A stretch of DNA of 62,233 bases, taken from IMG/VR virus record IMGVR_UViG_3300025030_000016, positions 1-62,233 of that record. One strand, written 5' to 3'. Each line of letters opens with the position of its first letter. The first letter of the stretch is position 1. This DNA comes from a virus. The notes beneath the pieces were generated by a model, which worked only from the letters and a program-made list of their open reading frames with translations, was not told the origin of the DNA and did not search any database. The position numbers and the translations under genes were made by a program. This document shows positions 49,598 through 59,562 of the stretch, in pieces.

Positions 49598-49618
49598 GGT
49601 TGACAGCGTGTCAACCTT
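49596..49618. promoter_or_regulatory. Perfect inverted repeat overlapping a -35 box (operator)
   Basis: Ten-bp arms AAGGTTGACA and TGTCAACCTT separated by GCG. The left arm contains TTGACA (49600-49605), so a bound regulator would block RNA polymerase. Confidence 0.7.
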
Positions 49619-49629
49619 TGAGCTAGGAT
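49600..49629 (+). promoter_or_regulatory. Promoter for the HTH-HNH gene
   Basis: TTGACA (49600-49605), an 18-nt spacer and TAGGAT (49624-49629). ATG 49635 lies about at the expected transcription start, so the mRNA may be leaderless. Confidence 0.5.
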
Positions 49630-49634
49630 GCCGT

Positions 49635-50057
49635 ATGTCATTTAAACGCGATCCAAAATTTGATGAGGCTGCACGGATGTACGATGCCGGTATGTCCGTG
49701 CAGAACGTAGCTGATTTCTACGGTGTTACCAGACAGTCTATGTGGAAGAGCCTCAAGCGCAGGACGACGCTCCGCCCCCAACTACGGTTTGGCGCTGATA
49801 ATCACTTCACCCGAGAAGGCGTGACCCCTAAAGATAGAGCGCACAACCTCTGCGAGCAAGCGATGAAGAGGCGGGTAATCGTTGCCCAGCCCTGCGAGGT
49901 TTGCGGGTTCGCAGGTAAGGCTAAAGACGGGCGTAATCTTGTTCAGGCTCACCACGACGACTACAACAAACCCCTTGAAGTGCGCTGGCTCTGCCAGAAG
50001 CACCACCATGAGTGGCACAAGCACAATTTACCAATTCCATTTAGTGAGGGAGATTGA
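49635..50057 (+). CDS. HTH plus HNH-like zinc-finger protein
   Basis: A 140-aa protein. An N-terminal HTH (EAARMYDAGMSVQNVADFYGVTRQSMWKSLKRR) is followed by a Cys/His part (PCEVCG...VQAHHDDYNKPLEVRWLCQKHHHEWHK) like phage HNH endonucleases. I chose ATG 49635; there is no strong SD, and a GTG at 49608 falls inside the operator. Probably a homing endonuclease or self-regulating factor. Confidence 0.75.
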   Translation: MSFKRDPKFDEAARMYDAGMSVQNVADFYGVTRQSMWKSLKRRTTLRPQLRFGADNHFTREGVTPKDRAHNLCEQAMKRRVIVAQPCEVCGFAGKAKDGRNLVQAHHDDYNKPLEVRWLCQKHHHEWHKHNLPIPFSEGD

Positions 50058-51245
50058 ATGTGGATATTACCAAACCGACTCTTGTCTCAATATGCACAGG
50101 CTACGGGGGGCTGGAACTCGGCATCGAAAGAGCAATTGGCCGAAAGTGCCTCACACTCGCTGCATCAGAGATCGAAGCATGGGCCATCGAAAACCTGGTT
50201 GCGAAAATGGAAGCAGGGCTTCTGCCCCCGGCTCCAATCTGGAGCGATCTGCGAACCTTTCCGGCAAGACCATTTCACGGCTTGGTGGACATCCTGTGCG
50301 GCGGCTATCCTTGTCAGGATTTTTCGGCAGCAGGTAAGCGCGCCGGATTCGACGGGGAGAAGGGTAAGATCTGGGGGTATGTGCGTACTCTCGTTCGAGA
50401 CATGCAACCGCGATTCTGCTTTTTCGAAAATGTCTCCGGGCACATCTCGCTTGGACTCTCCACAGTCCTCAGCGACCTGGAAGAAGATGGTTACCGCACA
50501 GAGTGGGGAGTATTCTCAGCGGCTGAAGTCGGCGCGCCTCACCAGCGCAAACGGGTGTTCATCCTTGCGGCAAGAGCCGGGGTCGTACCCGACTCCGGCT
50601 GCCAGGGACTACAAGAACACTTCAGAGAACCCGGAACACAACGAGGCGAGGTGGGAACACTCCAGGGGCAAGACGCTGCCGGAGTTTGTGAAACATGGCC
50701 CTCACGCCCTGGAGAGCCGCAGCACTGGTGGGAGCCTCCAAGAACAGTGGCCCACAGCCACAAGCAACATGATGACGGGAGCGGGGACTGCGGGGCGGGA
50801 AGGCGGGATGAATTTGCAGACGAAAGTCTCGGGGAAGCTCAACCCCCGTTGGGTCGAGACTCTCATGGGACTTCCCGTAGGCTGGACCATGCCGAGCTGT
50901 TCAGCACCTGTGACAATCGAGTCGATGAACTGCGCCTGCTTGGAAACGGCGTCGTGCCTGCCACCGCTGAGAAGGCTTGGCGAGTTCTCTACGGGAGACT
51001 CGTGGGGAACTCGCCGAGTCACCACTAACGGCGGCAACGGGAACCCTGAGAGGTTCGACGACAAGAAGAGTCGGTTGGAGGATCAGGTTTACTGGCCCAC
51101 CATCCGCGCCTCGGATGCCGACCCTGGCATCACCGTAGGGCGGCTTGAAGGCGAACTTGGAGGCCGTCTCTACGACAAAGAGACTGGCAGGAACTGCCAG
51201 TACGGTCTGACTCAGCAGGTCCAGCTGGCAGGAGGCCTCGCATGA
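50058..51245 (+). CDS. Overlapping ORF on the methyltransferase gene, MTase-like C-terminus in the second frame
   Basis: A 395-codon frame, one base off the methyltransferase frame, runs without stop from ATG 50058 (GGGAG upstream). Its later part holds motifs typical of phage cytosine MTase C-termini: SYPTPAARDYK, QWPTATSNMM, KLNPRWVETLMGLPVGWT, YWPTIRASDAD and GLTQQVQLAGG. It goes on for 72 codons after the MTase stop, and its TGA overlaps the Nudix ATG (ATGA). Either it is translated by frameshifting, or as an overlapping gene, or it marks an ancient pair of compensating indels. Confidence 0.45.
   Translation: MWILPNRLLSQYAQATGGWNSASKEQLAESASHSLHQRSKHGPSKTWLRKWKQGFCPRLQSGAICEPFRQDHFTAWWTSCAAAILVRIFRQQVSAPDSTGRRVRSGGMCVLSFETCNRDSAFSKMSPGTSRLDSPQSSATWKKMVTAQSGEYSQRLKSARLTSANGCSSLRQEPGSYPTPAARDYKNTSENPEHNEARWEHSRGKTLPEFVKHGPHALESRSTGGSLQEQWPTATSNMMTGAGTAGREGGMNLQTKVSGKLNPRWVETLMGLPVGWTMPSCSAPVTIESMNCACLETASCLPPLRRLGEFSTGDSWGTRRVTTNGGNGNPERFDDKKSRLEDQVYWPTIRASDADPGITVGRLEGELGGRLYDKETGRNCQYGLTQQVQLAGGLA
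50060..51028 (+). CDS. DNA (cytosine-5) methyltransferase
   Basis: A 322-aa C5-methyltransferase. I chose GTG 50060 because GGAG lies 7 nt upstream; TTG 50054 overlaps the previous stop and is an alternative. Motif I is ICTGYGGLELG (11-21), motif IV GGYPCQ with Cys85, motif VI FFENVSG (121-127), motif VIII QRKRVFILA (162-170) and motif X LGNGVVPATA (294-303). It probably methylates phage DNA against host restriction. The target-recognition region in this frame is oddly unlike known TRDs, while the overlapping frame carries MTase-like sequence. Confidence 0.88.
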   Translation: MDITKPTLVSICTGYGGLELGIERAIGRKCLTLAASEIEAWAIENLVAKMEAGLLPPAPIWSDLRTFPARPFHGLVDILCGGYPCQDFSAAGKRAGFDGEKGKIWGYVRTLVRDMQPRFCFFENVSGHISLGLSTVLSDLEEDGYRTEWGVFSAAEVGAPHQRKRVFILAARAGVVPDSGCQGLQEHFREPGTQRGEVGTLQGQDAAGVCETWPSRPGEPQHWWEPPRTVAHSHKQHDDGSGDCGAGRRDEFADESLGEAQPPLGRDSHGTSRRLDHAELFSTCDNRVDELRLLGNGVVPATAEKAWRVLYGRLVGNSPSHH

Positions 51246-51649: not shown

Positions 51650-51663
51650 GTTCGGCCTACTCC
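51643..51663. other. Hairpin at convergent gene ends
   Basis: An 8-bp inverted repeat GGAGTAGG/CCTACTCC with a 5-nt loop contains the TAG stops of both the Nudix gene and the giant minus-strand gene. There is no clear T-run on either side. It may protect both mRNA ends. Confidence 0.6.
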
Positions 51664-54600
51664 CCCCTCACCTTCTCCTGAATCAGTTTCTCCCGCTCCG
51701 TGAGTATGCCGGAGCGGGCTCTGATCCCCCGCTTCACCGCCTCCAGCAACTCCGACTGCGCGATCTTCATCTCGGGCTGCTTCTCCCCCCAGGCGTTGAT
51801 CGCCTCCAGAGCCTCCTCCCTCGCCTCGAAATCCCCCTCCATGGTTGCCTCGGTCATCCGGCGCACCAGAAGTGAGCGTCTCTGCCTGAGCTCCACGGTG
51901 AGCCCTGACATGGCGCGCCGCTCGTCCTGCGCCAGCGACACCTCAGTCGGGTTGATCCCCAGAAGCTGCAGGGCGATGCTGACCGGCGAGACGTCCTCCG
52001 GCTGGATCAGGGTGTTTCCTCCCGCACCCACGGCGCCCCGCTCCGTGAGGTTGTACGCCTTGGCGAAATCCTTGACGACCTTGGGGGAGGAGGCGGTGAC
52101 CGCCAGCCCCAGATCCCCGTCGCTCAGAGCATCTATGGCGCGCATGGAGTCGGAGGCGATGCCGAAAGCAGGACCCAGAACCCTCCCCGCATACCACTGA
52201 GCCTTCTGCGTGCCGGAGAGTCCCGGGGGCGGCTCTCCCGAGATCACGTTCGCCATGCCGCCCAGACCCACCCTCTTGGAGATGTCCGCGCCCAGCATGG
52301 CCGGGAGGCCCTTCAGGAAGGCGTTGCCGGCGGTGTCGCCGACCGCTTCCCGCACCATGTTCTCGAACTCCCGCTTGGGCTCCCATGGGTCGTCGGGGTC
52401 GCCGAAGGCTGCGGCAAGCCCCGCCCAGATCGCGCTGGTCACGGTGTTGGAGGCGAGGAGCGCCACGGGAGTCCCTGCGGCGCCTGCAAGCCCCATGCTC
52501 ATGCCGGTCATGTAGGCCAGCTCCTTGCGGGCCTCACCCCACCCCTTCTCGCCGTAGGCATCCTTGGCGAGCTGCACCATCTTGCCCAGCATGTGCAGCC
52601 TGAAGAACTGGAACTGCCCCAGGATGCGCCCCGTGTTGCCCCGCAGAAGCCCCGGCCGGTTCTGGCTGGAGAAGTCGGCCAGGGTGTCGTCGATGATGTT
52701 GGAGGCATAGTCGTTCGCCTCCATGAAGTCCTTGCCGTGGGAGAGCGCCAGCTGGAAGGAGGAGACCGCCGCCGCGCGCCGGGAACCTGTCTCCGACTTC
52801 TGCATGAAGAAGGCTCCCTTGTTCACTACGTCGTCCAGCATCTTCTGCCCGTCCGAGGCCCCGGTGATCAGGTCCTGCAAGGCGTGCGAGGAGGAGAGGT
52901 CCAGCATCCCCTGGAGTCCCAGGGTCTTCAGGATCAGGAGGCGCTTACCCTTGTCGTCGAAGCCGTTGTAGAGCGCCTGCATCGCCTTGCGAAGCCCTGC
53001 CTTCTCGGCGGGGAGGGCCTTGCGCTCCTGCTGGATCAGGTCGTAGAGCCGCTCGCCTGCATTCTCGTGCGCCACGTTGAACGCCTCGATCTTCTCGTCG
53101 GAGAATTCGCCGGCCAGATACCTCTTGGCCTCTTTCACATAGGCGCCGAACGCCTTGGTGACCCCGTAGCGCGCCGCCATCTTGGGGATGGTGGTCATGA
53201 AGGGCTGCGACCACTGCACCGCCCAGACCGAGGGGCTGGAGAGGTACCAGAGGAAGGTCGCCTTCCCCACAGCCTTGGTGAACTCGTTGACCTTCTCGGC
53301 GTTATGCTGCATCTCCAGACGGTACAGGTTGTCCTTCAGGCTGGACATCCTCTCCACGGCATGGGGTGACCAGTCGGCCGAGGGGTCCTGGTAGGCCTTG
53401 ATGCTGTTGTTCATGTCGCGGAAGCTCTGGTCGATCGCGGTGCCGTACTTCAGATTCGCAATCGCCCTAGCTGACTTGGCGACGTAGGTGGCGTAGGAGC
53501 GCAGCGCGTCGGTGGAGTAGCCCTCGACCCCCTCACGCTTCAGGGAGTGACCGGCCACCGAGTAGCGGGGCATGGTCTGAAGCCTGGCCGCCTTGAAGTC
53601 GTCCATGAGCGCGTCCAGTGCCTCTCCGGAGAGACCCCTCGCCTCGGCCGCCATCTTCATCTTCTCCAAGAAGGCCAGCGGGATGTTGGTGACGTTACGG
53701 TCCCCCTCGGTCTGAAGATCGTAGACCGGGAACACTCCGGCCTCGCCGCGGATGCGAGCCACGGCATCCATCGCCTGCTGCTTGGTCTCGAAGAACTCGG
53801 TCTTGACCCGCTTCTCGGAGTCGGCCTCAAGGGTGCGCACCACATGGTCGCCGAAGCGCATGAGGGGCGCGTAGTCCCCCTTCAGTTGCCCGCGGTCGGA
53901 GTTGATCATGGCGATCTGCTCCGCGAGGCTCATGGCGTCGGCGCCGTGCTTCTCGTACATCTTGCCGATGCCGTCGGCGTCCAGTTTCCATAACTGCTCG
54001 GAAAGCTGCTCCGCCAGGTCGAAAGCCTCGTCGCCGAAGGAGGCGCGCAGGGGTTCCAGCTGCGCCGCGCGGAACTGCTCGGAGAGGACTTTCATGTGGT
54101 CGATGATCTTCTGCTGCACCCGGCGCTGTTCAGGGTTGAGCTTCTTCCAGAGGGCTGCGATCTCGGCCCGGGCCTCGCCCAAGGTCTTGCCGGTCTGCTC
54201 CAGCTTCCCTGACTCTTTCCACGACGCCTCGGTCCAGCCAGCGTTCCTGCCGTCGGCGTGCTGCTCGTAGAGGGTCGCCTTCAGGGTCAGGTCGTCGAAC
54301 GCCTTATGCTCAGCGTCGGTCTTGAAGGCCTTCTCGAACTCCAGCCGGATGGTCTGCGCTCTTGTGGGGGGCTCGTCACCCGCCGCAGCCTTGGCCCGTT
54401 TCTGCCTGAGATAAGTCTCCAGGTGCGCCTTGATGGGGGCGTAGAGCGGCATGGACTGAGCCATGCGGATGGTCCGGTCCACTGGCATGACAGCGCGCCA
54501 GATGTTCCCCGAGAGGTCGGAGAGGACCCTCTTGGCGACCTGCCCGTCCAACTTTTTGGTGAAGGCGGTGAGCGCCTTGGGGTCAGAGAGAGTGCGAGCG

Positions 54601-57600
54601 AAGCGAGTCTCAGGGTTCGCCTTCTCATAGTCAGAAATCAGTTTCGCTGTCACGGTGCGGATCTTGTTGAAGTCTTTGTAGATGACCGCTGTAGCCTGCG
54701 CCGGGAACCTGCCGCCGTTCTTCTCGAAGACACGGCTGATCAGGTCGGAGACGTAGGCCAGCACTTTCTGAAACAGCGTCGGGTTCTCCTTGCTCATCTC
54801 GACCCAAAAGTCCTTCTCAGCGAGCAGAGCACCTACAGTGTCGGCCACGACTTCTTTTCCCGCCCGAGGTTTCGGAAAAGCCTTCAGATACTTCTTAGCC
54901 CCTTCCGCAGTGATCTGAGACCGGACGAACGCCTCGAAGGGGGCGTACAGTTCAGGTGCGCTCAGCTCAATGGTGTGCAGCAGTTCGTGTCCGAACACAG
55001 CCAGATGCGGCTCACTGGCGTTGGCGTTGATGTAGATGGTCGAAGGGTCGGTGTTTCGTATGAATCCGTCAGGAACTTCCAGCCCGTTCAAACTCTCAAA
55101 CACCACAACCTTCTTCCTGAAGGCTGCGCCAATTCCGCTGAGATGTCTTCCCACTTCCGTCTCTCGGCTAATTCGGACACCTCCTGGTATGACAGGTTTT
55201 CCAAGTGCTTCGGCAACGGCAGCCCTAACTCGTTCGAGTTCTCCGCCTGCGCCACCATCATCTTCAGTGACAGAAGTCCCGGGTGCATTTTCTTCTCCTT
55301 TCCTCTGCATCACCTCTCCGGCGCGGGCCACCAGCGAGCGGAGTTCGGTGTCCGTGTACTTCAGGTCGAACCCGAGTTTCCTCAGCGCCGCCTTGAAAAT
55401 CTCCACGAAGCGGTCCCACAGGGGATGCTTGGCATCGGTCTTCGCCAGCTCGACGATGTACTCCTCGGTCGCCTCCAGCTTCCCTTCCTTGTCCTTGGTG
55501 TCGATCCCCTTGGACTTGGCGAACTCCCTGACCCCCGAACCCAGATCGCCCCACGCCTTGGCGAGCAGTTTCTCCAGACCGTCGCGGCCAAGAAGCGAGC
55601 GCAGGCCGGCGTGCTGCAGTTCGTGGCGCAGGAGGACATCCTCCGCCTCTTTCAGCGAGGTGATGTGCTCGGCGTTCAGGTAGATGGTGCCGTTGTGGAA
55701 GACGCCGTTGAAGGCCGGAGCGTCCGGGCGAAGTCCCGGGATCTCGGAACCGGTGGCGACCACCTTGACGGGGATCTTCAGCTTGGCGACGATGGGGGCG
55801 AGATGCGCGCGCAGCGCCTCCGCCTCGACGGGTGCCTGCAGGTCGGCATACGTCGCCCTCCCTGCGAGGATCTGGTTGTACTGGTCCAGCTGCACCTCAA
55901 GGCGCGAGGTCAGGTCGTCCGCCGTGATGCCTTGCTGCGAGGCCGCAGCGGCGATCCCTTTGGCATCAGCCAGTCGGCGCACCGTCTCCTGCTTGGCCTC
56001 CTGGATGTCCGCCTTCGAGGGGGTGCGGGAGAATGCTGTCGCGTCCTGCTTCAGCTTCTCAGAGATATAAAAGGCGAGAGCGTTCCGGCGTATCGCGTTC
56101 AAATGCTTTTCAAGCTGCGACTGTTTCGCGTCCTCTGAACGGTTCACCCACGCTGGGTTGTTCTTCCAAGTATGCTCGCGCAGTCGGGTGGTCTCTTTGT
56201 CGAGAGACTCCTGGACTCCGATGGATTCCCATGCGGCGTGGGAGACTTTGCTCAGTTCTGCGTCGGTAATCGACTCGGACATCTTTAGCTTGCTCTGAAC
56301 TCCTTGCGCGATGAGGCTTCGGATTGACCCCACCACCGACTTCGGAATCCCCGCATCTGCGAAGGATGCGACTCGGGCGAATCTCGCCCCTTCAGGACTC
56401 AAAAGCCCCGCCTGCCTCAAAGCGCCAACCATGCGCTGCGCCGCCTCAGGGCTCTCAGCCGTTCCGGCATCTACCTCGAACTCACCCTTGGCGTTCTTCT
56501 CCGCCTGCGCCACCTTGGCGCGTTTCCCCCGCGGGTCGGTCATGACCAGGATGACCTTGTCGTCCTTACGCATCAGGGTCTCCGTGGGGGAGAGCTCCAT
56601 CTGCTGGCCGCTTAGGAGGGTCTTAGGCTCCTGTGGAGCCAGGGCCGCTGCCTGCTCTACAGCGGCCTCCGCCTTCTTCTCAATCCTCCACTCCCGCCGC
56701 TTGGCCGAGCCGCCTGCGGTCCGGTCCAGACGCTCCCCCTTGACCAGCGTGAAGCCCAGATCGTCCAGATGCGCCGCGACCTCCGCATCAGGGAGGAGCC
56801 CCTCTTTCAGTACGGTCCTGCCTGCCTTGGCCCAGGTCTGCGCGCGCAGGAGCGAAGGGTCGGCCACAGGCTCTGCCGGGATGGCGCGACCCTTCGTGCT
56901 CCCTTCCTGCACTACGACAGGCTCCTCCGGAGTAAAGAGATCCTGCTGAACCGGCTTCAACGCCTCCACGACCTTTGCCTCTTCCTTGGCCTGCAGGATC
57001 TCCAGAGGGTTCTCCTCCACGGAGAGCGACTCGGCTACCGCCTCAAGGAGTGCGGCCCTCGTCTCCTCCGGCTTCGCCTCTCCTGCCAGCTCCTCGACGA
57101 CCTTCTGCGTCTCGGCATCAAGCGGATGGTCCCCCGCATCAAGCCGGTCCAGAGCCTCGGCCTGGAAAGCTACTGAGTCTTCCGGGTTCAGCCGGGCGGC
57201 CAGAGCCTCGACTGCCGGTTTCTGCTCCTCAGGGAAGAGGTCCTGCAACTCGTCCAGCTCCTCCTTGATCTTCGTGGCTTCGCCGCCCACCCCCGCCGCC
57301 TTGGCGGCCAGGTTGAAAGCAGCCGAAGTCCCGCCGCCCATGACCCCGCCGGCCAGAGCGCCTGAGGCCGCCGCTGCACCCACCCCTTGAGTCAAGGGTT
57401 TCCCTGTCGCAAGGTTCTGTGCCGCCTGCTCCTGCGCGGACTGCGGCATCTCTTCAAGGAGACCCTCGGAGGCTACACCGCCTGCCAGAGCCTTGACCGT
57501 TCCAGTCTTGGCCGCCTGCGCCCCTCCGGCCAGAGCCGTGTCCACGTCGGCGATACCGAAACGGCGGGCGAGTCTGCCTCCCGCCACACCGAGAGCTCCT

Positions 57601-58175
57601 GTGGCTGCCCCGCTCCCTGCCGCAATCGCCGCCTGCTTGCCGGTGATGAGGCCCGTGGGACTCTCCTGCCTGATCTGCTCCGCCGTGGAGCCTGCGCTCA
57701 TGACCCCCTCGCCCGCGGCCGCAGCAGCGACCACCGGCACTCCTGCTTTCATAAGCCCTCGGGCTACACCCGCGCCGCCCAGCATGGAGGGCGCCGACTC
57801 GATGACCGTGTGAGCGATCGTGGACGGGTTCCTGAAAGAAGCCTTCAGTCTCGGCACGAAGCCGTCGGCCTGAGAGACCTCGGCGTTCGCCGCCTGCTGC
57901 TCCAGAGAGTAGAGGGTGTCCAGGGTCGCCTTGGCTTCCTTGGGCCTGAAGCCTACGGCCTCCGCCGCTTTCCCCGCAAGCCCTCCGGTGGCAATGTCCG
58001 CCACACCTACCACCGCCTCGGGGAGGCCGATGGCTCCCTTGGTCGCGGAGATTAGAGGGTCTGCCACGAACCGGCGCAGGCGGGAAGGAGGTGCCGCAGG
58101 TCCGACTTCCGGACCCTCGTAGGGGGTGAGCTTGGGCGCGTCTACTTCTTCGCCGTCATAGGGGGTCAGGGCCAC
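51657..58175 (-). CDS. Giant polyvalent/ejection protein with two zincin-like motifs
   Basis: A 2,172-aa protein starting at GTG 58175 behind AAGGAG. The N-terminal 350 residues have several Gly/Ala-rich hydrophobic segments (VARGLMKAGVPVVAAAAAG; AAIAAGSGAATGALGVAGG) that could insert in membrane. Two HExxH motifs occur: HELQH at about 851-855 and HELLH at about 1063-1067. A long helical region (MYEKHGADAMSLAEQIAMINSD...) resembles polyvalent-protein-associated domains. Such proteins are packaged and injected with the DNA. It is the last gene of the late operon. Confidence 0.8.
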   Translation of the reverse strand: MALTPYDGEEVDAPKLTPYEGPEVGPAAPPSRLRRFVADPLISATKGAIGLPEAVVGVADIATGGLAGKAAEAVGFRPKEAKATLDTLYSLEQQAANAEVSQADGFVPRLKASFRNPSTIAHTVIESAPSMLGGAGVARGLMKAGVPVVAAAAAGEGVMSAGSTAEQIRQESPTGLITGKQAAIAAGSGAATGALGVAGGRLARRFGIADVDTALAGGAQAAKTGTVKALAGGVASEGLLEEMPQSAQEQAAQNLATGKPLTQGVGAAAASGALAGGVMGGGTSAAFNLAAKAAGVGGEATKIKEELDELQDLFPEEQKPAVEALAARLNPEDSVAFQAEALDRLDAGDHPLDAETQKVVEELAGEAKPEETRAALLEAVAESLSVEENPLEILQAKEEAKVVEALKPVQQDLFTPEEPVVVQEGSTKGRAIPAEPVADPSLLRAQTWAKAGRTVLKEGLLPDAEVAAHLDDLGFTLVKGERLDRTAGGSAKRREWRIEKKAEAAVEQAAALAPQEPKTLLSGQQMELSPTETLMRKDDKVILVMTDPRGKRAKVAQAEKNAKGEFEVDAGTAESPEAAQRMVGALRQAGLLSPEGARFARVASFADAGIPKSVVGSIRSLIAQGVQSKLKMSESITDAELSKVSHAAWESIGVQESLDKETTRLREHTWKNNPAWVNRSEDAKQSQLEKHLNAIRRNALAFYISEKLKQDATAFSRTPSKADIQEAKQETVRRLADAKGIAAAASQQGITADDLTSRLEVQLDQYNQILAGRATYADLQAPVEAEALRAHLAPIVAKLKIPVKVVATGSEIPGLRPDAPAFNGVFHNGTIYLNAEHITSLKEAEDVLLRHELQHAGLRSLLGRDGLEKLLAKAWGDLGSGVREFAKSKGIDTKDKEGKLEATEEYIVELAKTDAKHPLWDRFVEIFKAALRKLGFDLKYTDTELRSLVARAGEVMQRKGEENAPGTSVTEDDGGAGGELERVRAAVAEALGKPVIPGGVRISRETEVGRHLSGIGAAFRKKVVVFESLNGLEVPDGFIRNTDPSTIYINANASEPHLAVFGHELLHTIELSAPELYAPFEAFVRSQITAEGAKKYLKAFPKPRAGKEVVADTVGALLAEKDFWVEMSKENPTLFQKVLAYVSDLISRVFEKNGGRFPAQATAVIYKDFNKIRTVTAKLISDYEKANPETRFARTLSDPKALTAFTKKLDGQVAKRVLSDLSGNIWRAVMPVDRTIRMAQSMPLYAPIKAHLETYLRQKRAKAAAGDEPPTRAQTIRLEFEKAFKTDAEHKAFDDLTLKATLYEQHADGRNAGWTEASWKESGKLEQTGKTLGEARAEIAALWKKLNPEQRRVQQKIIDHMKVLSEQFRAAQLEPLRASFGDEAFDLAEQLSEQLWKLDADGIGKMYEKHGADAMSLAEQIAMINSDRGQLKGDYAPLMRFGDHVVRTLEADSEKRVKTEFFETKQQAMDAVARIRGEAGVFPVYDLQTEGDRNVTNIPLAFLEKMKMAAEARGLSGEALDALMDDFKAARLQTMPRYSVAGHSLKREGVEGYSTDALRSYATYVAKSARAIANLKYGTAIDQSFRDMNNSIKAYQDPSADWSPHAVERMSSLKDNLYRLEMQHNAEKVNEFTKAVGKATFLWYLSSPSVWAVQWSQPFMTTIPKMAARYGVTKAFGAYVKEAKRYLAGEFSDEKIEAFNVAHENAGERLYDLIQQERKALPAEKAGLRKAMQALYNGFDDKGKRLLILKTLGLQGMLDLSSSHALQDLITGASDGQKMLDDVVNKGAFFMQKSETGSRRAAAVSSFQLALSHGKDFMEANDYASNIIDDTLADFSSQNRPGLLRGNTGRILGQFQFFRLHMLGKMVQLAKDAYGEKGWGEARKELAYMTGMSMGLAGAAGTPVALLASNTVTSAIWAGLAAAFGDPDDPWEPKREFENMVREAVGDTAGNAFLKGLPAMLGADISKRVGLGGMANVISGEPPPGLSGTQKAQWYAGRVLGPAFGIASDSMRAIDALSDGDLGLAVTASSPKVVKDFAKAYNLTERGAVGAGGNTLIQPEDVSPVSIALQLLGINPTEVSLAQDERRAMSGLTVELRQRRSLLVRRMTEATMEGDFEAREEALEAINAWGEKQPEMKIAQSELLEAVKRGIRARSGILTEREKLIQEKVRGE

Positions 58176-58185
58176 AGGCCTCTCC

Positions 58186-59562
58186 TTACTGAACGAATTT
58201 TTTACCCTGCGCGTCGACCAGGATGGCCTTGCCTTCAGGGGTGAACTTGCCGGATGCTTTGAAGCCTGCAGGGATCGCCGCCGCGGCAGGGTCGAACAGC
58301 TGCCCCGCATCGTTGACCAGCCCCGCCTGCTGATCAGGGCCGAACCATTTGTTCTTCGCCTTCTGGACTTTCCGGTAACCGCCACGAACGGCGAGGGCGG
58401 CCTCGGAGGGGAGGAGCCCTGCGCTGGTGGCGAGGGACTCGGCGTAGGCTGCGTCGGCCTTGACCATGGGGGAGTTGTTCCTCGCCTCCAGAGCCTTCAG
58501 CTTCCCTTCCTCGATCATGCGCTGCTTCTCTAGCGTGAGGTCTGCGTCCGACTTGCTCCGGACTCCCTCGCCCAAAGCATTCTTGTAGGCGATGTCGGCG
58601 CGGGTCGCCTCGGGGTAGAACTGAGCCTCCAGATCGGTCTTGGTGGCGGCTGCCCTCAGGCTGTTCCGGTAGGACGCTGCGGTCTGGAGGTCGGAACCCT
58701 GGTCCAGCACCTTCCCCGGGAGGAGCGTATCCCTCTCCGCGATCTGCGAGACCGTACCCGCCTCGGTCGTGTCCGCGTTCTGCTGGCTCACCCTGTAGGT
58801 GCGCAGGTTGTTCGCCTCGGTCTCGGCCTGCTTCTGCTGCTCCAGAGCCAAAGCCCTGCGCTTGAAGAAGAACGGCTCTCCGTCGGGGGTGGACGCCTGT
58901 GCATCCTCCCACGCCTCCTGACTCCCCGTGTAGCCTACGTCTCCGGCCCGTTTCCGATAGGTGGGAGCGGAGTCGAACTGAGCCTCTCCTGTGGAGCCGA
59001 GCCCGTCGTAGGCCTTGCTCCCCGCGATGTACATCCTGACCCCGTCCTGCTCGATGTAGCCTCTGCCTGCGGACTCCGCCACAGGCTCCTCTGCGGAGTA
59101 GGAGACGGTCGGCGTGGGGATCGGCACGGGGCGCTGCGGGACCGCTGCAGCCTGAGGCCTGCGGTAAGAGGGGGCTGAGGTCGATGCCGCAGAAGCGGCG
59201 GGGGAGATCAAACGCTCCCCGGGAGTGTGCGCGGCGATCGTGGAAGGTCGCAACCCCAAGGCCGGAGCCGTAGCCGCCTGTGCAGGGGTGGTCCCCCGGG
59301 CCTCGTAGCGTCTGAGGTTCGCCGCAGGGAAAGCCGCCTGCCGCTCCTCGAAGGTCGTGGTCGGCGTGCCGGTGGCTGCGACGGCGTTGTAGGTTCGCAC
59401 CCCCGCGTTGACCAGACCGTTCACCCCTGCCTTGGCGAGTCCGCCCAAAGCTCCCCCAAGGGTTTTGACGTCACCCAGCTTGGCGGGGTCGGTCTCGTAG
59501 TCGTTCAGTTTTGCCGGCAAGCCGAAATAGGATCGAGCGTTGAACCTCGCGGTTTCCGCCAT
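58186..59562 (-). CDS. Internal virion protein (probable)
   Basis: A 458-aa Ala/Glu-rich helical protein (MAETARFNARSYFGLP) with a Pro-rich middle (RPQAAAVPQRPVPIPTP) and long coiled-coil (KRRALALEQQKQAETEANNL). It lies directly before the giant ejection protein. The pattern and place fit internal core proteins of podoviruses. Confidence 0.7.
   Translation of the reverse strand: MAETARFNARSYFGLPAKLNDYETDPAKLGDVKTLGGALGGLAKAGVNGLVNAGVRTYNAVAATGTPTTTFEERQAAFPAANLRRYEARGTTPAQAATAPALGLRPSTIAAHTPGERLISPAASAASTSAPSYRRPQAAAVPQRPVPIPTPTVSYSAEEPVAESAGRGYIEQDGVRMYIAGSKAYDGLGSTGEAQFDSAPTYRKRAGDVGYTGSQEAWEDAQASTPDGEPFFFKRRALALEQQKQAETEANNLRTYRVSQQNADTTEAGTVSQIAERDTLLPGKVLDQGSDLQTAASYRNSLRAAATKTDLEAQFYPEATRADIAYKNALGEGVRSKSDADLTLEKQRMIEEGKLKALEARNNSPMVKADAAYAESLATSAGLLPSEAALAVRGGYRKVQKAKNKWFGPDQQAGLVNDAGQLFDPAAAAIPAGFKASGKFTPEGKAILVDAQGKKFVQ

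Follow-up and report, generated by a model that had tools for sequence, protein, structure and literature searches.

Two overlapping reading frames in a viral genome that probably encode the subunits of a single C5-methyltransferase

The window analyzed here, a virus record taken at its full length of 62,233 bases, carries two same-strand frames that are open at positions 50058–51245, and we conclude that this locus very probably specifies a single two-subunit C5-methyltransferase of the M.EcoHK31I kind, made from two overlapping genes. Judged by comparison with related sequences, both frames are genes, because they are conserved, open and constrained, and the pair is present in well over 170 related loci. 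An earlier first-pass annotation of the same DNA had noticed both frames; the functional reading absent from it is that the frames divide the conserved parts of one enzyme between them.

Under the reading that we favor, the zero-frame product (alpha) would provide the catalytic large domain, with motifs I–VIII and a C-terminal motif X, and the +1-frame product (beta) would provide the small domain in trans, with the target-recognition region (TRD), the WPT blocks and motif IX. One Shine–Dalgarno site would load ribosomes, with coupling to the stop codon of the upstream ORF (TGA, 50055–50057) probable. Initiation at the ATG would then yield beta and initiation at the GTG two bases farther on would yield alpha, such that one messenger would serve for both subunits. 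Beta would determine the sites at which the resulting alpha–beta complex methylates phage DNA, which would thereby be protected from host restriction. We infer that both proteins are translated, that they bind each other to form a complex with methyltransferase activity, that beta sets its specificity and that its role is anti-restriction.

Organization of the locus and its start region

The features of the locus are collected in Table 1. The first-pass annotation had described the zero frame as a C5-methyltransferase with motifs I, IV, VI, VIII and X, and all of these are present and in order, with the coordinates of the locus as claimed. Its account of the +1 frame was equally accurate with regard to the 395 codons, the separate ATG and Shine–Dalgarno sequence, the blocks YPTPxARD, WPTxxS, LNPRWVETLMGLPVGWT and WPT..ASDAD, the extension of 72 codons beyond the alpha stop, and the ATGA overlap between the end of beta and a Nudix ORF that starts at 51242. 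A further claim, that the LNPxWVE block and motif X lie in different frames of the same DNA, is correct for the frames but not for the bases, since the two are neighbors with 29 bases between them.

Table 1. Coordinates of the two genes and their parts within the window
Feature	Position	Strand	Remarks
Shine–Dalgarno-like AGGGAG	50047–50052	+	Serves both starts; from sequence; SD-like matches 5′ in most relatives
Alternative alpha start, TTG	50054	+	Shares its frame with GTG 50060
Interlocked start, ATGTG	50058–50062	+	Beta ATG; alpha GTG 2 bases downstream
Beta, +1 frame	50058–51245	+	ATG start; putative TRD region, WPT blocks and LNPxWVE
Alpha, C5-cytosine methyltransferase, zero frame	50060–51028	+	GTG start; motifs I–VIII and X, without IX
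Alpha motifs I to VIII	50084–50566	+	From motif positions; same DNA encodes the N-terminal half of beta
Alpha motif I	50084–50122	+	
Alpha motif IV (PCQ)	50300–50326	+	
Alpha motif VI (ENV)	50420–50434	+	
Alpha motif VIII (QRxRxF)	50531–50566	+	
Beta WPT block 1, YPTPAARDYKNT	50586–50621	+	YPTPAARD from 50586
Alpha block WPSRPGEPQHWWEPPR	50696–50743	+	Kept within the window type
Beta WPT block 2, WPTATSNMMTGA	50748–50783	+	WPTATS from 50748
Beta LNPRWVETLMGLPVGWT	50838–50888	+	LNPxWVExLMGxPxGWT type; motif IX by position
Alpha motif X, RVDELRLLGNGVVPATAEKAW	50918–50980	+	
Alpha stop	51026–51028	+	
Beta WPT block 3, WPTIRASDADPG	51093–51128	+	WPTIRASDAD; C-terminal extension past the alpha stop
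Beta stop	51243–51245	+	

The start region is conserved in a manner that ties the two genes together. Among relatives of the window type, the alpha GTG lies exactly 2 nt downstream of the beta ATG in 59 of 81, and when the second alpha codon specifies Asp it is GAT in 56 of 56 cases, although the rest of the gene uses GAC more often. A second class, termed MNELALF for the N terminus of its alpha protein, has the layout NTG-A-ATG with four bases between the starts. Within MNELALF loci that were gathered without using the start, alpha codons 2 and 3 are AAT-GAG in 75 of 79, although AAC and GAA are used more often elsewhere (p values for start codons are overstated because the sequences are related). 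These locked alpha codons are fixed by the M-S-W or M-W-I start of beta, and the GTG at 50060 that overlaps the beta ATG is most likely the alpha start.

The two translations were searched separately, as the first-pass annotation had suggested. Alpha matches PF00145 (E = 1.3e-33), with the match limited to motifs I–VIII, and phrog_363, described as 'DNA methyltransferase' (E = 3.4e-55). Beta matches phrog_1008, also described as 'DNA methyltransferase', over amino acids 103–277 (E = 1.6e-11), and the beta proteins of all classes form this single family. Searches with beta matched no family in Pfam or NCBIfam, and a sequence search of the PDB returned nothing. An AF2 model of alpha, built from 68 sequences, has an M.HhaI-like methyltransferase fold over the large domain and a middle of low confidence (pLDDT 73). 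Beta modeled alone reaches a pLDDT of 52.6 and is confident only at residues about 131–165 and 261–280, a poor fold that would be expected of a partner-dependent subunit and equally of a weak protein.

The ORF located immediately 5′ of the locus (49608–50057) gives helix-turn-helix and endonuclease-like (HNH) profile matches, and its TGA abuts the beta ATG. Elsewhere in the window, an ORF of 2242 codons occupies positions 51657–58385 of the minus strand.

Conservation and constraint in the two frames

An open +1 frame of this length exceeds chance expectation. When the window zero frame was shuffled synonymously, the +1 frame was stop-free in 0.7% of shuffles (0–2% in the relatives tested), and when the +1 frame was held fixed under shuffling the zero frame was open in no case. 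Searches with the +1 frame recovered hundreds of loci from phages and bacterial genomes, many of them matched across the full length of beta; both frames are open in 146 of the loci fetched, and the overlap of alpha and beta has a median length of 979 nt. A scan of a genome-contig collection with the window alpha returned no relatives.

Circularity was avoided by also gathering loci with the alpha (zero frame) query alone, which gave 76 loci after the exclusion of 12 more in which motif VIII was unrecognized. In this alpha-only set, 74 of the 76 loci keep the +1 frame open through the N-terminal half. The LNPxWVE motif lies in the +1 frame in 65 of 76, the pattern was missed in nine, and it falls in the alpha frame solely in two loci (L015 and L016) whose frames are fused by an indel. 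The arrangement is common to hundreds of phages and prophages. The first-pass annotation had proposed to judge the second frame by its homologues in unrelated phages and by its freedom to change; such homologues were found in unrelated phages and in prophages, and they are constrained, which leaves the claim standing. In one Escherichia coli prophage (PCP07014; L026 601–1362), alpha is interrupted by an internal stop and the +1 frame, too, closes early, after 121 codons.

Substitutions were taken from 73 MNELALF-class pairs, all disjoint, and from 33 pairs of the window type, and isolated changes were tallied by zero-frame codon positions 1/2/3. Over motifs I–VIII these number 207/69/953 in the MNELALF class and 143/56/591 in the window type; the corresponding counts are 297/28/29 and 97/23/57 over the TRD, and 110/17/88 and 76/5/102 over the end region. 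Because zero-frame position 1 is position 3 of the +1 frame, the MNELALF TRD evolves mainly as a +1 gene. Substitution patterns of this kind indicate that the catalytic part evolves under the zero frame and the end region under both frames at once. They likewise indicate that the beta-frame signal over the TRD is strongest in the MNELALF class and that the middle of the window type is constrained in both frames.

The N-terminal half of beta, which shares its DNA with motifs I–VIII, was examined through changes that are silent in alpha. Beta stops arose through such changes in 0 of 502 and 0 of 909 cases (together 0 of 1,411), a count that is biased because loci were retained only with both frames open, yet the alpha-only set shows that almost none fail this requirement. 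Single-chain phage methyltransferases were taken as the control because a control based on substitutions in neighboring genes gave only five pairs, and in these enzymes silent changes create a stop in the +1 frame in 26 of 630 chances (Fisher p = 2e-7 and 6e-11). Alpha-silent changes that create stops in the third frame occur freely. Moreover, changes that are silent in both frames exceed in frequency those silent only in alpha by a factor of 2.1–2.9, compared with ratios of 1.4 and 1.07 (not significant) in the controls. From this constraint, beta appears to be translated over its N-terminal half as well, and to be constrained more weakly there. Single-chain methyltransferases of the streptococcal type (L282–L360) also have a long +1 frame, with a median of 161 codons and without the beta-type LNPxWVE; silent changes creating stops in it do occur, slightly under expectation.

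Division of the conserved motifs and alternative readings

Across the two main classes, 177 loci have LNPxWVE in beta and no locus has it in alpha; for motif X, 181 loci have it in alpha and seven have it in beta instead. In all loci of these classes, a motif IX of the beta type is absent from the alpha chain ahead of motif X. Single-chain controls from streptococcal phages have a canonical motif IX in frame in 60 of 67, and the beta type in the +1 frame in none. In five loci (L080, L084, L092, L106 and L171) alpha stops after motif VIII and X lies in beta, downstream of LNPxWVE; mycobacteriophage Broseidon and Streptomyces phage Vash have the same split.

Both sets of motifs can also occur in one chain. 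A single ORF of Gordonia phage Gudmit (L277 944–2326) contains motifs I–VIII (phrog_363), WPTP-like blocks, an LNPxWVE-like motif and motif X, and it matches phrog_1008 over amino acids 301–457. By these matches it is a natural fusion of the alpha and beta families; its +1 frame holds an apparent remnant of the N-terminal part of beta. In two contigs from different metagenomes (L015 3032–4179 and L016 3980–5374), an indel at motif VIII has brought motifs I–VIII into one frame with the WPT/LNPxWVE part, and motif X is left in a third frame. LNPxWVE was assigned as the putative motif IX by its position, by its shape (L-[NT]-P ... [MQ]-G-x-P) and by the fusion; a profile comparison with canonical motif IX (hhalign) was not significant.

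The number of WPT modules counted per beta varies from 0 to 5. A block similar to that at 51093–51128 of the window stands behind LNPxWVE in three loci (L009, L011 and L016) and ahead of it in two (L002 and L003), as though modules had changed place or been duplicated.

The first-pass annotation had left three options for the two frames, of which dual coding is supported by the homologues and by purifying selection on both frames. Programmed +1 frameshifting, wherein ribosomes would begin on alpha, change frame near motif VIII and end in the beta frame, would give a chain with motifs I–VIII, TRD and IX beside plain alpha. In-frame fusions that exist naturally (L016 and the Gudmit ORF) and the beta-frame constraint on the TRD region would suit such a product, but it would be without motif X in most loci, and a mid-gene shift has no need of a conserved beta ATG at constant spacing from the alpha start or of a beta N-terminal half that is open, stop-free and under graded constraint. 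Because beta has its own conserved start beside that of alpha and an open, constrained N-terminal half, we disfavor frameshifting and consider it unlikely. The third option, a double-indel relic or annotation artifact in which one frame is functional and the other a fossil, might draw on the existence of broken-looking loci (L050 and L026), but well over a hundred loci show conservation and constraint in both frames. Constraint in both frames rules out the relic and sequencing-error readings and excludes a double indel as a general explanation, so that we assign this option a negligible probability.

A further reading gives the two proteins separate functions, such that alpha would be a complete methyltransferase that has an unusual TRD and no motif IX, and beta would be unrelated, such as a regulator or anti-restriction factor. 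This would accommodate the failure of beta to match Pfam or NCBIfam and the conserved block that window-type alphas have of their own between motifs VIII and X. Nevertheless, the motifs are complementary across loci, X is found in beta where alpha is without it, and the two families are fused in one chain, which together make separate functions quite improbable in our estimation. The two-subunit reading offers a testable answer to the absence of motif IX from the alpha proteins.

Relation to known systems and existing annotation

The beta gene of M.EcoHK31I, a two-polypeptide C5-methyltransferase recognizing YGGCCR, lies inside its alpha gene in another frame; its product is short, at 176 amino acids, and starts within alpha. 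The window and over 170 loci likewise have beta in another frame of alpha, but the window beta begins at the alpha start, is 395 amino acids long, overlaps the whole of alpha and carries the putative TRD region. In M.EcoHK31I, motifs I–VIII and X are on one polypeptide and IX is on the second, with the TRD predicted in the larger subunit (PMC3404938). It is the characterized precedent for this I–VIII plus X versus IX layout, which the window shares, with its motif IX assigned by position and by the Gudmit fusion. Two plasmid matches (L280 and L281) that were checked proved to be ordinary single-chain enzymes. The split C5-methyltransferase M.AquI (CYCGRG) also consists of two polypeptides with motif IX on the second, but there motif X is on the second as well (PMC3404938), whereas the window has X in alpha; the M.AquI arrangement corresponds to the minority of loci with X in beta (L080, L084, L092, L106, L171, Broseidon and Vash). 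A different hidden out-of-frame gene in phage methylases, the ShiLan-type HNH endonuclease (PMC11855218), is an inserted homing endonuclease and not an enzyme subunit.

Alpha and beta belong to phrog_363 and phrog_1008, respectively, and the family description is silent on their overlap in one locus. Searches of the open literature found no account of such an overlap in phages, although this absence is not proof of novelty. As far as could be searched, the new elements are the near-complete overlap, the interlocked starts, the predicted recognition region in beta, the wide spread, the X-in-beta variants and the natural fusion.

In many tailed phages and prophages, almost all of the DNA that encodes these two long, conserved proteins of known family is common to both. 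Should beta be the recognition subunit, methylation predictions based on alpha only are wrong, phage methyltransferases cloned as 'single-gene' enzymes could lack activity for a simple reason, and the locus is a clean natural case of dual coding that shares constraint between frames. We give roughly even odds to a broader proposal that a large share of the annotated single phage C5-methyltransferase genes are in fact dual-coded pairs that overlap over ∼1 kb and start at interlocked codons. In these, the WPT modules of beta, variable in number, would provide recognition in trans, and specificity would shift by module gain or loss while alpha need only stay open.

Most of the records examined have just one of the two genes annotated. 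Alpha alone is annotated in Acinetobacter phage ABMM1, Salmonella phage S9-5, and E. coli and Leptospira records. Paenibacillus larvae phage Shelly has an alpha/beta pair (gp55/gp56; L020 1335–2372 and 1519–2223) in which, unlike in the window, beta starts 184 nt inside alpha. Both Shelly genes are annotated, as a DNA-cytosine methyltransferase and as 'g55 internal gene', with no functional reading offered, and no mention of the latter was found in papers on these phages. In Pseudomonas phage VB_PaD_phPA-G (L279 936–1664), it is the beta frame that is annotated, as 'hypothetical protein', and the methyltransferase frame that is left unannotated.
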